DNA of 64,000 nt, from positions 1 to 64,000 of the IMG/VR virus record IMGVR_UViG_3300047560_000348; one strand, written 5' to 3'. The notes below the pieces were generated by a model. That model searched no databases. It saw only the letters and a list, made by a program, of their open reading frames with translations, and was not told where the DNA came from. This DNA comes from a virus. This document shows, in pieces, positions 1,492 to 13,252 of the stretch; the first letter of the stretch is position 1, and every line of letters begins with the position of its first letter. Both the position numbers and the translations under genes were made by a program.

Positions 1492-1671
1492 TTACTGTAT
1501 AAGTTTAATTACTGGTGAACATGGATCTCCGCCATCTTCCCATTCTTGCTGTTCTTCTTCTGACATGTATGGGTCGCCATCATGTGTATAGCAAAAAGGC
1601 TCTGTTACCCAGCCTTTTTCGATTCCGTGTTGTAGCCAATCAAATAGCTCATCAAAATTTTTATCTGTCAT
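1492..1671 (-). CDS. Small acidic protein, probably leaderless mRNA
   Basis: The gene encodes 59 residues beginning MTDKNFDELFDW and ending VIKLIQ, with an acidic centre (SEEEQQEWEDGGDPC). There is no SD. Instead a near-perfect promoter, TTGACA-17-TATACT, ends 6 nt before the ATG, which predicts a leaderless transcript and supports both the gene and its start. No domain is recognised with certainty. It lies between the proteasome-like gene and the metallopeptidase gene. Confidence 0.75.
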   Translation of the reverse strand: MTDKNFDELFDWLQHGIEKGWVTEPFCYTHDGDPYMSEEEQQEWEDGGDPCSPVIKLIQ

Positions 1672-1677
1672 AGAAAT

Positions 1678-1706
1678 AGTATAGCATTAGGCAGTGACAA
1701 TGTCAA
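1678..1706 (-). promoter_or_regulatory. Near-consensus promoter giving a leaderless start
   Basis: On the minus strand TTGACA (1706-1701) is followed by a 17-nt spacer and TATACT (1683-1678), with the extended motif TGC immediately before the -10. Only six bases separate the -10 from the ATG at 1671, so transcription should begin at or next to the start codon. It sits across the 3' end of the proteasome-like gene. Confidence 0.8.
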
Positions 1707-2211
1707 CTGGACCTTGGCAACTTGTTGAAAATTTTATAGCAGCAGATACTGCTTTCATGACACGTTTACGAGTATCTTTTAGGTTTTCTGTAGAATACAT
1801 GGACCCATAGGCGTATTCAGATCCAGAACCCATTGCAACATAGTCATGCATGTATTGATTTAAAGACATATCAACAGCATTATGTTCGTATATCTTGCCA
1901 CGTATACCTATGAGCAATCCGAAGTCAGAATCATTGGATACATCTACCCACCAATTTTCATAGAATACACGTAGGGCAATAAGAAAGTCTGTATACATAA
2001 ATTTATCCAGATCGTCTCCCTTTGGAGTTGGTGGCTTGAAGTTATACTTCATTCTATCTCCATCCATAGAGCCACAATATCCAAAAAGATATTCTCCGTG
2101 CTTCCATACCTTTGGGCTAGTCAAAGACATGATTAGGTTATTTTCAGATGCACCACGGTCTCCAGCCATGTGAATTTTATCACCATGACGTGCTGCTACA
2201 ATACATGTCAT
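1687..2211 (-). CDS. Proteasome beta-subunit-like Ntn hydrolase
   Basis: The 174-residue product begins Met-Thr, so removing Met1 would expose an N-terminal threonine nucleophile. In mature numbering the other catalytic residues of 20S beta/HslV subunits are present at the expected places: Asp17 (in AGDRGAS) and Lys33 (in SPKVWK). A GSGSEYAYGSM segment near residues 127-137 matches the conserved GSG motif. The length equals HslV (about 175) rather than a pro-peptide-bearing actinobacterial PrcB. No ATPase partner (HslU, Mpa, ARC) is encoded in this window. It overlaps the upstream oxygenase gene by 4 nt and has an SD GGAGATAGT. It should form a self-compartmentalising peptidase; substrates are unknown. 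Confidence 0.85.
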   Translation of the reverse strand: MTCIVAARHGDKIHMAGDRGASENNLIMSLTSPKVWKHGEYLFGYCGSMDGDRMKYNFKPPTPKGDDLDKFMYTDFLIALRVFYENWWVDVSNDSDFGLLIGIRGKIYEHNAVDMSLNQYMHDYVAMGSGSEYAYGSMYSTENLKDTRKRVMKAVSAAIKFSTSCQGPVDIVTA

Positions 2212-2741
2212 ACTATCTCCATTTTCTCTATAGGATATTTGCCAACTTCTTCATCATAAGTAAAACCAATTGATGCTGCATATCTAGTTCCACTGGTAAC
2301 TGTAGTTACTTGATGTAATAGCATAGCATCAAAGCTAATCATTGTCAAGGATTTGGGAGTGTAGGTATATTTTTCTTCTGGAAAATCCAAAAGACCCCCA
2401 TCAAAATCTTCATTTAAATAAAACATTATCGTGAAGACATCTTGCCCTCTAGTTGGGGATTCATCCCTATGTGGTCTACAGAATGATCCAGGCCCATTCT
2501 TAATTATTAGCAAATCAGTAACGTATGGTACTTTTTCAATATCTCCGCTAGATAGGTGATGCCTTAATGCAATTTCAGAATATTTCCTAATAAAGTTTTT
2601 AGAAATGTCATCTTCTGGATTACACAGGATTTCCCTGCCTTGATCATTTATAAATCTACCATTTCTAGATTCAAGCAAATTAATAAAGTAGTCTGCTTCA
2701 GACTGATCAATTTTTTGATCATAGACTTTGATAAATGACAT
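2208..2741 (-). CDS. 2OG-Fe(II) oxygenase
   Basis: This 177-residue protein shows the iron triad H91-x-D93 and H143, with R153 placed to bind 2-oxoglutarate (GTRYAASIGF). The strand pattern is that of a prolyl-4-hydroxylase-like double-stranded beta-helix. The length is typical of short phage members. Its stop overlaps the start of the proteasome-like gene (TAGTATGA), so the two are translationally coupled. A promoter lies just upstream. The substrate cannot be told from sequence; protein or nucleobase hydroxylation are both possible. Confidence 0.8.
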   Translation of the reverse strand: MSFIKVYDQKIDQSEADYFINLLESRNGRFINDQGREILCNPEDDISKNFIRKYSEIALRHHLSSGDIEKVPYVTDLLIIKNGPGSFCRPHRDESPTRGQDVFTIMFYLNEDFDGGLLDFPEEKYTYTPKSLTMISFDAMLLHQVTTVTSGTRYAASIGFTYDEEVGKYPIEKMEIV

Positions 2742-2780: not shown

Positions 2781-2809
2781 ATTATCCCAAAAGGGCCAAA
2801 TCAAGTCAA
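2781..2809 (-). promoter_or_regulatory. Promoter for the oxygenase/proteasome-like pair
   Basis: On the minus strand TTGACT (2809-2804), a 17-nt spacer and GATAAT (2786-2781) form a good sigma70-type promoter in the gap after the holin-like gene. A second TATAAT at 2776-2771 is an alternative -10. A short CCC-TTTT-GGG stem in the spacer may be a weak attenuator. Confidence 0.65.
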
Positions 2810-2815
2810 TAATGA

Positions 2816-3100
2816 CTAATTAGTTTGTTTTTTATCAACCGCAGCGAATGCCTGATTGATTTCTGCAATAGTGAGCTTGCCGTCATCAAGAAATGCTCTT
2901 GCAAGCTTTTCCACGACAGTAGCAACACCAAGCAGACCTGCCAAGCATACAGCCTGTACAGTATCAATGCCAATCACAGCACCAGCACCCAGAACTCCGA
3001 GACCATTTGCTGCAAACACTGCAACAATTCTCGTGAGGACATTAGACAGGGCTTTTGGTCCCTGGGGTTTGGCTGGCACAGTTCCTTGTGTTTTTGCCAT
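2816..3100 (-). CDS. Holin-like membrane protein
   Basis: The chosen start (MAKTQG) gives 94 residues, has SD GAGGA, and overlaps the preceding stop as TAATG; a start 14 codons upstream lacks these supports. A Pro/Lys-rich N-terminus is followed by two hydrophobic helices (about residues 22-46 and 50-70) and a soluble tail DDGKLTIAEINQAF. This matches small actinophage membrane proteins annotated as holins, and it is paired with another small membrane protein. No endolysin adjoins it in this window, so the holin role remains an inference. Confidence 0.6.
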   Translation of the reverse strand: MAKTQGTVPAKPQGPKALSNVLTRIVAVFAANGLGVLGAGAVIGIDTVQAVCLAGLLGVATVVEKLARAFLDDGKLTIAEINQAFAAVDKKQTN

Positions 3101-3270
3101 TAGTCTTCCTCTCTGTTTCTTATCGGATAGGTAACAATCCATGCAAACATGGTTCCTAATATCGCATACCCAACAATTGCTTTGGCACTACCATCAAGGA
3201 CAACCCAAGCAATAAACATGCCTAGAAGTGTCCAAAGTTGGTCTACCATATCTTTAAAGAATTTAACCAT
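3100..3270 (-). CDS. Small membrane protein, holin-partner candidate
   Basis: This 56-residue ORF begins MVKFFKDMVDQLW and ends YPIRNREED. It holds one long or two short transmembrane stretches (about 12-27 and 32-49) and a charged C-terminus. AGGAG precedes the start at a good distance, and its stop shares a base with the start of the holin-like gene. Size, topology and position suit a second holin, antiholin or lysis-module protein. It starts 2 bp after the stop of the PA14 gene. Confidence 0.65.
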   Translation of the reverse strand: MVKFFKDMVDQLWTLLGMFIAWVVLDGSAKAIVGYAILGTMFAWIVTYPIRNREED

Positions 3271-3272
3271 TC

Positions 3273-5534
3273 TTATTGTCTCCTTGTATTGTTAGACCCA
3301 CCTGTAGTACCACCTGATGAAGCAACAGAAACTGCATTCATCGCTGCACCTGCAGCAACGACTGTTGCAACTACCATGTGTTGAGCCTCTTCTCTCTCAG
3401 CAGGGCTCATGTCTGCACCAATAGAACCAAGGGCAGCAAGGGCTGCTCCTGGGTCAGAAAGCAATTCTCCTACGAATGCTCCTGGGTCAGAAATCAATTC
3501 AATATTTGCAGCATCTTGTGCTGTGATCACAACAGCATTTCCACTCTCATCTGTTCTAACATCAACTGGTGTTGAAGGTGGTAGATCAGAATAGGATATT
3601 CCTGCTGCCTGTATTTGTTCGCTAGATAATGCTTCTCCTGGCTTTAGCTCTTCTACTAGAGATAAAACAATTGCTGCTTTTTCTTCTTCTGTAACTACCC
3701 CGTCTGCCTTGGAATCATCTACAATGTTTTCAGTTTTTGCTGCCTCTTCTGCAGCCTTTTGTTCAGCCTCAAGTTTTGCCTTTTCCTCAGCTAGCCTCTC
3801 TGCTTCTGCAAGTTTTTCTGCTTCTAGTCTTTCTGCCTCAAGCTTTGCAGCCTCTTCTGCAGCCAATCTTTCCGCTTCTAGTCTTGCTTCTTCTTCAGCT
3901 TTGGCAAGTGCTTCTGCTTCTGCTTTAGCCTTAGCTTCTGCTTCTGCAGCAAGTCTTGCTTCTTCTTCAAGCCTTAGCCTTTCTTCTTCTGCTGCTTTTG
4001 CTTCAGCTTCTAATCTTAGCTTTTCTTGTTCTGCAGCAATTCGTTCTGCTTCAGCTTTTGCAGCAGCTTCTGCAGCAGCTTTTGCCTCTGCCTCTGCTTT
4101 AAGTCTAGCTGCCTCTTCTGCAGCTGCTTTGGCTTCTGCTTCTAGCCTAAGTCTTTCTGCCTCTGCTCTTGCTGCAGCTTCTGCTGCCAATCTAGCTTGT
4201 TCTGCAGCTATAGCAGCTTGTCTAGCAGCCTCTTCTGCTGCTGATTGCTGTGCAATAACAGTAGACAGATTGCTAACTGATCCACTTGCACTTTGAACTG
4301 CTGAAACTGCAATTGCTGACAAGTTAATAGCTGTTGTTATTGCCTGATTGGCATCTTGGATTGCAATTTCCTGTTCAGCCTGTGCTGACACGACTGCTTC
4401 TTCTGCAATGGCAACTTCCGATGTAGCTAAAGATACCTGATCTAATGATTGATTTTCAATTTGAATTAAGCTATTTAATAATGTATTGCTGGACTGTAGT
4501 TGACTATTTGCATCTGCTAAATTTTGAACTTGTTGCTGTGTAGGGCTTGAGGTAGTTGTAGAAAAAGCTGTTGCAGGAACTATTGACCAACTACCACCCT
4601 GAGTCCACATAAGATTAACATTGGCACCACCGCCATTTTCATAATAGTATAGTGTCATTGGAATTGGCTCACCAGCCTGTACATTATAGGTGATTGCTGT
4701 TCCTCCGCCACCCTTGTCATACCAGTCATTAATAACTGTTTGTCCATTTAGTTTTAGGATAACGCCATCATCTGCTGGAGCATAAAGACCAACTGTTCCA
4801 GTATATTGAGATGTAATATTACCACTAAACTTAACAATAAAGTCTTCTGCTATCAAGTTAAAAGCTGCTCCACTACCCCAGTTAAAGTTAATCTGAGTTA
4901 CAGTAGTTGTATATATTGGTGATCTACCAATCTGTTCTGGAAGTGGTGGGGCATTGTTGTATCCACTCATATTATAAATTTCTGCCTTAAGGCCAGAGGA
5001 TAACCCTATTGTTTGATTAATAGCAGTCTGTACCGATTGAACATTTTGAATATCTGTTGCAACCACAACTTCTTGTGCATCAACGTTGGCAGATGCTTCT
5101 GCTAGGTCTGCTGTAGCATTTACTAGGTTTTCCTGGGCATTATCTAAATTCGATTCTGCCTGAGTTACTGTTGCTGTAGCACCATCTACTACAGAAATCT
5201 TAATGTTGGCTTGCTCTACAGCTGTCTCTGCAGAATCTACTGCATTAGCAGCAACCTCGATTGCCTGTGTCGCTGTAGTAATTGCTGTAGAAATTATTTC
5301 TGTTACTGAGACTGACCCTGAGCTCTGTACCGCTGATTCCATATTTTGAGAAACAACCACTAAGTCAGCATTAGCTGTTTGTAATTGTACAACTACTGTT
5401 GCTAGATCGCCCTCTTGAACAACGGTTACGGTAGCAGAATTTACCACTTCATCAGCTGATGCAGTAGCAAGTGGCCATAGAGTCATGACTCCAGTTAGCG
5501 TAAGTAAGGCAAATATTGCCCAAGACTTCTTCAA
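3273..5534 (-). CDS. Secreted PA14-domain protein with long coiled coil
   Basis: The 753-residue protein has a Sec signal peptide (cleavage near ASA|DE, residue 27) and a helical region (30-175). A PA14 beta-domain follows at about 181-326, including YAPADDGVILKLNG and NDWYDKGG. Next comes an Ala/Glu/Lys/Arg-rich coiled coil (about 430-625) made of AEAE/AEEAARL-type heptads. The acidic C-terminal part ends in a weakly hydrophobic Ala/Val segment and TTGGSNNTRRQ. PA14 domains commonly bind glycans. A signal peptide means export by the host, unusual for a virion fibre, so a surface-displayed or periplasmic role is likely. The neighbours are nrdF upstream and the small membrane-protein pair downstream. 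Confidence 0.7.
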   Translation of the reverse strand: MKKSWAIFALLTLTGVMTLWPLATASADEVVNSATVTVVQEGDLATVVVQLQTANADLVVVSQNMESAVQSSGSVSVTEIISTAITTATQAIEVAANAVDSAETAVEQANIKISVVDGATATVTQAESNLDNAQENLVNATADLAEASANVDAQEVVVATDIQNVQSVQTAINQTIGLSSGLKAEIYNMSGYNNAPPLPEQIGRSPIYTTTVTQINFNWGSGAAFNLIAEDFIVKFSGNITSQYTGTVGLYAPADDGVILKLNGQTVINDWYDKGGGGTAITYNVQAGEPIPMTLYYYENGGGANVNLMWTQGGSWSIVPATAFSTTTSSPTQQQVQNLADANSQLQSSNTLLNSLIQIENQSLDQVSLATSEVAIAEEAVVSAQAEQEIAIQDANQAITTAINLSAIAVSAVQSASGSVSNLSTVIAQQSAAEEAARQAAIAAEQARLAAEAAARAEAERLRLEAEAKAAAEEAARLKAEAEAKAAAEAAAKAEAERIAAEQEKLRLEAEAKAAEEERLRLEEEARLAAEAEAKAKAEAEALAKAEEEARLEAERLAAEEAAKLEAERLEAEKLAEAERLAEEKAKLEAEQKAAEEAAKTENIVDDSKADGVVTEEEKAAIVLSLVEELKPGEALSSEQIQAAGISYSDLPPSTPVDVRTDESGNAVVITAQDAANIELISDPGAFVGELLSDPGAALAALGSIGADMSPAEREEAQHMVVATVVAAGAAMNAVSVASSGGTTGGSNNTRRQ

Positions 5535-5636: not shown

Positions 5637-8717
<3,081 letters not shown>

Positions 8718-8725
<8 letters not shown>

Positions 8726-9119
8726 TTATCTCATCCAACCTATTCGTTACTCGTTGTACATCTTCTGATGTACCAAAGATTTCTACCTTTGCAATGACTG
8801 GTACTCCAGTCTTTTGAGATATCATTTCTGCTGCTTTACAGAAATGTTCTCCAAAATTTGTGTTACCAAGACCTATTATACCAACTAATTTTGATCTGTT
8901 CTCTGGTATGTTTAAAAATTTTCTAACTGATTTAGGGATTGCTGTCTTATCACTTCCACCACCGTATGTTGGAACAAATAATACATATTTAAAATCAATA
9001 ATCATTGGGTTGTTATCATCCCACATTATGGGAATCCTTGTTGCGTTATCTGTTATCTTTTCTACAAACTTTTTAGTATTTCCAGAATGGTTAGAGAAAT
9101 ACACAATACCCACAGACAT
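8718..9119 (-). CDS. nrdI: NrdI flavodoxin-like activator
   Basis: This 133-residue flavodoxin-fold protein carries the FMN phosphate loop SNHSGNTKK (residues 9-17), a VPTYGGG segment and [11 protein letters not shown]. NrdI supplies the oxidant for assembling the dimanganese-tyrosyl radical cofactor of NrdF. It leads the nrdI-nrdE-nrdF set and has an AGGAG ribosome site. NrdH lies separately near recA. Confidence 0.95.
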
Positions 9120-11990: not shown

Positions 11991-12516
11991 CGTTATTCAC
12001 TATCGTAATTGTTTCTGACGAATTCTTGCTAATTCTAGAAAGTCTACGCATAATTTCATCACGGATTTCTGGATATTCAGACGCAATGTCTTTTAGGATT
12101 TGGATAAGTGCTTCTTGTCTCTCCTCGATGGCAATCATCTCTTCTGCAAGCTCTTTATTTTCTAATAGTCCTGCTTTTTGTAGCATATCAATACGTGTCT
12201 TCTCAAGGTCCATAACAAGCTTAATACCCTGAGTCTTTGCAGCCAGGTTTGCTGTTGTCGTTGCCTCATCAATTACTTCGTAGGCTTTTGAGATTAGCTT
12301 GCTATAGTGGGTGTCAGCACCAACCAAAGCCTCTTTAGCACGTGCACGGATAGCAGCATTGTCTGCAGCCATCTGTCGCCACTCACTAATGTATGCCACA
12401 ACTGTCTGCCTTGGCATAGCAAGTTCTTTAGAAATCTGTGTTGGATCGCTACCAGCAAGGTATTTTTCTACTACCTTGTTTACACTATCCAAATGCTCAA
12501 TTAGTTTATCTTCCAT
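11980..12516 (-). CDS. terS: Terminase small subunit
   Basis: The start at MEDKLIEH gives 178 residues. A helix-turn-helix lies at about 19-50 (YLAGSDPTQISKELAMPRQT), followed by a long helical oligomerisation region. The reading frame extends 26 codons upstream, but that part overlaps the preceding gene and has no ribosome site. Position directly before terL and the HTH plus coiled architecture indicate TerS, which recognises phage DNA for packaging. Confidence 0.8.
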   Translation of the reverse strand: MEDKLIEHLDSVNKVVEKYLAGSDPTQISKELAMPRQTVVAYISEWRQMAADNAAIRARAKEALVGADTHYSKLISKAYEVIDEATTTANLAAKTQGIKLVMDLEKTRIDMLQKAGLLENKELAEEMIAIEERQEALIQILKDIASEYPEIRDEIMRRLSRISKNSSETITIVNNDVR

Positions 12517-13252
12517 ACTTAAAAGCACTCTCCATTCGCTCTTTAATTTTAGCAATAGCTTCTGGTGATTGCAACTGCTCTTCTGTTGGTGCAAATAATG
12601 CTCTTGTGGTTAATCCAGAAACATTCTCTACTGGTACATAATAAAATAATGCTAGGCTTTCTCTGTTTACCCCAGCTGGAGCATGACATGCATCATCTGC
12701 AGGTAGGCCATGCCAAAAGTTTTGATCTGTCTCAAATACCACAGCACGATTAAATACTGGGTCTACATCAAAAATCTTTTCTTTTGGCTGACCGTTCTCA
12801 TCATCCCAAAACTCTAACTGGCCACCATACTCTGGTTTCCAATCTGGATTAGTATAAACAATAATGTTTAGCTTACGTCTTAGCCCTAGCTTTGGGTGTA
12901 GGTCAGCATCCTTGTGTAGGTTTAGCCTTCCATTGTGTGCGTGTAAATGCATACCACCTGCATGCAAGCCATAATCTGCAATTAGGCCATTGATTCCAGT
13001 CATGCCCTCAAGTTGATCTACGAAGTCTTGAGACGACAGATGAAACATAGCACGATAAATGCTTCCTGGATACCAGTCCCAGTGTGTGGACAATCTTTTT
13101 TGTTCAAACTCAGTGTGGTTACGAGTCAGCCATCTTTCATCATCGAAGTCATAAAAGTCTTCATTGATTGCCGTAATAGTGGCATCATCAAAGAAGTCAT
13201 CAATAATCCAAACATTAGTTGGATACGACTTGTGCTGTATTCTTTCGTACAC
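12506..13252 (-). CDS. 2OG-Fe(II) oxygenase
   Basis: The 248-residue protein has the iron triad H113-K-D115 and H181 and an arginine at R197 (NRESLALFYY) for 2-oxoglutarate. The YGGQLEFWDD strand is typical of the prolyl-4-hydroxylase-like family. It starts with GTG, preceded by AAGGG at a suitable distance, and overlaps the upstream gene by 38 bp. A His-rich stretch MHLHAHNGRLNLHKD may help metal binding. The substrate is unknown. Confidence 0.8.
   Translation of the reverse strand: MYERIQHKSYPTNVWIIDDFFDDATITAINEDFYDFDDERWLTRNHTEFEQKRLSTHWDWYPGSIYRAMFHLSSQDFVDQLEGMTGINGLIADYGLHAGGMHLHAHNGRLNLHKDADLHPKLGLRRKLNIIVYTNPDWKPEYGGQLEFWDDENGQPKEKIFDVDPVFNRAVVFETDQNFWHGLPADDACHAPAGVNRESLALFYYVPVENVSGLTTRALFAPTEEQLQSPEAIAKIKERMESAFKYGR

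Follow-up and report, generated by a model that had tools for sequence, protein, structure and literature searches.

The gene at positions 1687-2211 (minus strand) of the window, by which we mean the whole 64,000-nucleotide stretch of viral DNA analyzed here, taken from a virus record of 68,135 bases, encodes a 174-residue proteasome-like Thr peptidase. On the basis of sequence comparisons and a predicted structure we consider it probable that the protein is a group-I (HslV/BPH-like) proteasome homolog that acts as a stand-alone Thr-peptidase ring or chamber. The gene is real and intact, and its family is widespread and already has a name (PHROG 1040); what is added here is a large clade of actinophages carrying it, a likely host that lacks the proteasome and HslU, a private promoter that is conserved, and findings that speak against a link to the adjacent oxygenase gene. 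Viral proteasome homologs have been catalogued, and the literature that we found reports no function for them. Because no proteasome, HslV or HslU was detected in the likely host, the system provides a clean case for establishing whether the viral enzymes work alone, and the corrected view of the oxygenase removes a misleading functional clue.

Sequence, Conservation and Fold of the Peptidase

The gene is supported by its open reading frame, by Pfam, PHROG and PDB profile matches, and by an AlphaFold model compared using Foldseek and VIA-align. It starts with ATG, 6 nt downstream of a ribosome-binding site reading GGAG, and the protein begins MTCIVAARHGDKIHMAGDRGAS and ends ...PKVW. In mature numbering, counted from the Thr that follows the start Met, the predicted nucleophile Thr1 (Thr2 of the reading frame) is encoded at 2206-2208, Asp17 at 2158-2160, Lys33 at 2110-2112 and a GSG motif, residues 127-129, at 1822-1830, all on the minus strand. 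A sequence-only reading of this DNA had claimed precisely this arrangement, along with an HslV-like length lacking a pro-peptide, and both hold: the protein has 174 residues, Thr directly follows Met and the model aligns along the length of HslV. Agreement at the catalytic and GSG positions goes well past what chance would give.

Conservation was gauged from 80 IMG/VR loci kept as relatives (57-97% identical); in addition, 155 public phage records match the peptidase at a limit of 0.01. Thr1 and Lys33 are invariant among 67 distinct sequences, with Lys33 found in 66/66 relatives, and position 17 is Asp in 62 of 66 and Glu in the other four. An apparent loss of Thr1 in three rows was traced to mis-set start codons (MTVLAVV) and is not real. 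Both Gly residues of the GSG motif are invariant, the motif reading GCG in three reference phages (T5-like, Aeromonas and Vibrio henriette). In comparison with its closest relatives (85-97% identical) the gene shows a dN of 0.02-0.09 and a dS above 1, for a dN/dS of ∼0.02-0.06 by simple counting with dS near saturation; judged from these sequences, the peptidase is under strong purifying selection and is kept as an enzyme-like protein. A first genome scan returned no close bacterial relatives.

Searches with the single sequence left some doubt as to the assignment, since the Pfam PF00227 match was just over the cut-off and only weak matches to 20S β, HslV and BPH were obtained from the PDB. 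This doubt is removed by a 19-row profile of phage homologs that matches HslV (1m4y, 7e-14), BPH (5ovu, 6e-13) and 20S β (from 5e-9). With the predicted N-terminal Thr, Asp17 and Lys33 present and conserved and with this profile match, the sequence places the peptidase in the PF00227 superfamily, and a significant whole-protein match in a profile search (residues 1-173, E 2.2e-21) places it in PHROG 1040, 'peptidase HslV family'. The AlphaFold model (mean pLDDT 91.3, pTM 0.87) has BPH as its top Foldseek match, followed by HslV, and VIA-align gives a Z score of 18.9 both for BPH and for S. aureus HslV (6kr1) and one of 18.0 for HslV 1e94, the alignment at 18.9 spanning 165 residues and the identity to BPH being ∼20-21%. 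Residues 2-174 of the model align with 1-186 of BPH and with 9-181 (6kr1) or 1-171 (1e94) of HslV, such that model residue 2 sits on residue 1 of both BPH and E. coli HslV. Two helix pairs flank the sheets, helices H50-57 and H68-87 are both present, no insertion lies over the active site and extra C-terminal elements are absent. The predicted fold is thus the four-layer Ntn sandwich of the proteasome/HslV type. The earlier identification of a phage-encoded peptidase of this type is borne out by the homolog profile, the model and PHROG 1040, and of the structures that had been named for comparison, HslV, 20S β and BPH were matched, BPH ranking first in the structure search.

Likely Host and the Search for a Partner ATPase

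Identity to Streptomyces phages is 54% for the terminase of the window and 44% for its capsid protein. A WhiB gene, from a family that among control genomes was matched only in the actinobacterium, scores over the cut-off in 7 of 10 related records, the window's own record not being among them. The flavodoxin/NrdI-NrdE-NrdF genes (5637-9119, minus strand) lie in the same order as in the operon that Aquiluna, Rhodoluna and other Luna-type Microbacteriaceae carry, to which the NrdB of the window is 82-87% identical; they were not found in most sister phage records and were apparently captured from the host lineage. From nrdI-nrdE-nrdF, WhiB and the terminase similarity we infer that the host is a freshwater actinobacterium of the Luna-type Microbacteriaceae kind.

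The suggestion, made from the letters alone, that no ATPase partner is encoded stands up well. The 10 related phage records give no match to AAA_2 (the HslU/ClpX type) and none over the cut-off to AAA. The window's own record, at 68 kb, is a fragment, but such an ATPase is likewise missing from related records that reach 105-111 kb. In the candidate host lineage, where some of the genomes searched are incomplete draft assemblies, HslU is over the cut-off in 0 of 12 genomes (best ∼97 bits vs a cut-off of 362); only shorter matches are seen, in frames of ∼427-438 residues, which from their lengths and scores we read as ClpX-like. PF00227 is matched in none of 11 non-mycobacterial candidate host genomes, the lone Mycobacterium genome being positive as a control, and in none of 150 Microbacteriaceae genomes, for which positive controls were matched. 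Borrowing of a host HslU, which had also been proposed, is therefore unlikely, with no HslU over the cut-off in likely hosts and no HslU/ClpX-type ATPase in the phages, and blocking of a host proteasome is equally so because the likely host lineage is without a PF00227 gene.

Oxygenase, Promoters and Neighboring Genes

The gene immediately upstream, at 2208-2741 (minus strand), encodes a 2OG-Fe(II) oxygenase (PF13640, 4e-10) and shares a 4-bp ATGA overlap with the start of the peptidase. This overlap had been noted before and is real; the clue to substrates and function that was drawn from it is not, since in none of the 80 relatives, even those that are 85-97% identical, does the oxygenase precede the peptidase, and a second oxygenase is found elsewhere. 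Related oxygenases in the relatives sit at scattered offsets downstream. The second 2OG-Fe(II) oxygenase of the window (12506-13252, minus strand) is near the terminase gene and suggests that oxygenase genes of this type travel as mobile cargo in the phage.

A promoter-like TTGACT-17-GATAAT with TG (2781-2809, minus strand) precedes the oxygenase here and in relatives is found directly before the peptidase, where alignments reveal a conserved sigma-70-type TTGACA-17-TG-TATACT between the lysis gene and the peptidase. In the 110 nt before the peptidase 64 of 82 loci, many of which are related and so do not amount to 82 independent cases, have a promoter score of at least 11, vs 2% of random windows from the same loci. 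Within the 64-kb window there are 10 extended promoters, 4 of them in the first 2.8 kb, where 2.2 are expected and 0 of 100 shuffles reach ten. The simplest history suggested by these patterns is that the oxygenase, a lineage-specific insertion, entered between an ancestral promoter and the peptidase, so that the ATGA coupling is local. A further promoter-like site, TTGACA-17-TATGCT with TG (2320-2348, minus strand), inside the oxygenase gene and ∼109 nt before the peptidase start, is possibly a separate promoter for the peptidase. Judged from this layout the peptidase is one of several cargo genes in a row that each have a promoter of their own, and we infer that it may be expressed early.

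Further upstream lies a gene for a holin-like small membrane protein (2816-3142, minus strand; phrog_443 holin, 4e-4), the conserved upstream neighbor in the closest clade. Among the relatives the upstream neighbor is a holin-like gene in 22 loci and an endolysin (PHROG endolysin, 7e-25) in 43. Read-through from a lysis operon was considered and rejected because the conserved promoter intervenes after these genes, and for the same reason the link to lysis is probably positional. Downstream neighbors vary among relatives; the usual one is a conserved gene for a 59-residue acidic protein that matches no known family (1492-1671, minus strand), found within 300 bp of the peptidase in 51/80, and its perfect TTGACA-17-TATACT promoter-like site (1678-1706) lies partly within the 3′ end of the peptidase gene. 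Two predicted secreted proteins are also encoded on the minus strand nearby: a 753-residue protein with a PA14 domain and a long Ala/Glu-rich coiled coil (3273-5534), conserved beside the lysis genes, and a metallopeptidase-like protein (428-1480) with HEYVH...NEGAA, gluzincin-like and with a weak M61 match, relatives of which occur in several sister phages.

Proposed Mode of Action and Alternatives

In the explanation that we favor the host deformylase and methionine aminopeptidase would expose Thr1, which is possible without a pro-peptide because Thr directly follows the start Met. The subunits would then assemble unaided into a chamber, which would probably be a double ring like those of BPH and HslV, and there Thr1 would attack the peptide bonds of small proteins or unfolded ones with no ATPase dedicated to the task. 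Host RNA polymerase would transcribe the gene from its own sigma-70-type promoter, and since the peptidase is a separately promoted cargo gene after the lysis block, a role in host takeover or proteome clearance would seem more likely than one in virion assembly. The oxygenase gene would simply have entered between promoter and peptidase. Points that count against this explanation include the Asp17Glu replacement in four homologs, the fragmentary record, beyond which an ATPase may lie, a host assigned from gene similarities and not from an isolate, and a shared fold that would also fit a specific amidase or a ligase (as for connectase).

An alternative is an HslV-like chamber that can degrade folded proteins only when docked on an AAA+ unfoldase of the host, be it HslU or a substitute such as ClpX, ClpC or Mpa. 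This would account for HslV being among the closest solved folds and for an HslV-like length free of insertions, and HslU may be present where relatives infect Vibrio, Salmonella or Geobacillus. Such docking is nevertheless quite unlikely for the present protein, given a likely host lineage in which HslU stays below its cut-off and proteasome genes were not detected, phage records that lack an HslU/ClpX-type ATPase and a score of 21.8 against the 157.75 bits required for the HslV equivalog. Also unlikely, if less so, is that the protein is an Ntn-type enzyme dedicated to one specific reaction instead of bulk proteolysis, for example site-specific processing, amide hydrolysis or peptide ligation, and possibly forms no ring; the superfamily does span a range from a monomeric ligase (connectase) to the proteasome (PMC8665760) and some phage homologs carry long C-terminal extensions, but the active site of the model is uncovered by insertions, the helix pairs that mediate ring contacts in relatives are present and the closest folds are those of ring formers.

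The remaining two readings appear highly improbable. In one, the oxygenase would mark or damage proteins for removal by the peptidase, the two genes working together; it has in its favor the ATGA overlap in this genome, yet it is close to refuted by the 80 relatives, in which the oxygenase is never upstream and its kin are scattered downstream, and by a promoter layout that indicates insertion. In the other, the protein would have lost catalysis and serve as a structural subunit or a decoy to block a protease of the host. This would be in keeping with Asp17Glu in a few relatives, but Thr1 and Lys33 never vary and the likely host offers neither a proteasome nor an HslV as a target.

Comparison with Known Systems

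The question left by the sequence-only reading, whether this family has been described in phages, can be answered in the affirmative. The family is not new to phages: homologs are annotated in Demerecviridae, in Vibrio, Aeromonas and Geobacillus phages and in actinobacterial phages, and Fuchs, Alva and Lupas (2021) described two kinds of phage proteasome homolog, PPH ('the first true viral member') and AAH (PMC8665760). Neither a genomic context pointing to function nor an AAA+ partner was reported for them, and AAH, a group-I type with both helices found in many phages, was reported from none that infect actinobacteria (PMC8665760). This gap is now partly filled, as 'protease' genes of the present kind are annotated in Arthrobacter and Microbacterium phages.

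In several unrelated phages (L084, L087, L085, L188, L189, L190) genes for RNR, thymidylate synthase, DHFR or ThyX, often together with PhoH, are found a few genes away from the peptidase, either because a block of genes is shared or, the genomes being large, by chance; as a clue to function this neighborhood was dropped, there being no nrdB in the records of 13 of 17 relatives, some of which are short fragments. In Vibrio phages (L090:633-1130 and L193:3498-3995) a peptide deformylase gene is located three genes upstream of the peptidase; deformylation must precede the Met removal that exposes Thr1.

Members of PHROG 1040 from T5-like, Vibrio, Aeromonas, Geobacillus and other phages share with the peptidase the MT start, D17, K33 and G(S/C)G and, in T5-like (192 residues), Vibrio (176) and Psychrobacter (174) representatives, the same length class. 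The distant phage members, however, are only ∼22-38% identical, and the PHROG profile fits the short type better, skipping ∼30 residues of the peptidase. Aeromonas phage 4L372XY (L194:2501-3897) encodes a long type (183 residues) followed by an adjacent PPH/RPC-like short type (275 residues, with a C-terminal extension), both carrying Thr1, Asp17 and Lys33. Such tandem copies establish the two as separate types, and a mixed particle of both is conceivable. No second, short PPH-type copy was found in the window or in its relatives. More tentatively, a clade of actinophages may install a complete ATPase-free proteolytic chamber, under its own host-type promoter, in bacteria that lack the proteasome and HslVU, with some other phages (the Aeromonas plateaulakeviruses) encoding two types in tandem that might form a mixed particle; we regard this as possible but doubtful.

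Of the cellular enzymes, HslV resembles the peptidase in fold (Z of 18.0-18.9), length and catalytic triad but differs in its partner, HslU being found in neither phage nor likely host, and the peptidase falls well below the cut-off of the NCBIfam HslV equivalog, TIGR03692. BPH, the top structural match (5OVS/5OVT/5OVU), also has no known unfoldase, and binds epoxomicin covalently (PMC5777263); it is bacterial, and the two published studies report for it an elongated acidic pore loop and a demonstrated tetradecameric ring. With the phage-borne PPH/RPC the peptidase shares group I and the lack of a pro-peptide, but PPH has ∼140 residues and no helix H2 (PMC8665760), as compared with 174 residues and both helices here. 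By its published description AAH (reference WP_035979212), in group I, with both helices and in many phages, is a plausible type for the peptidase, which can be described as a long type and perhaps an AAH.
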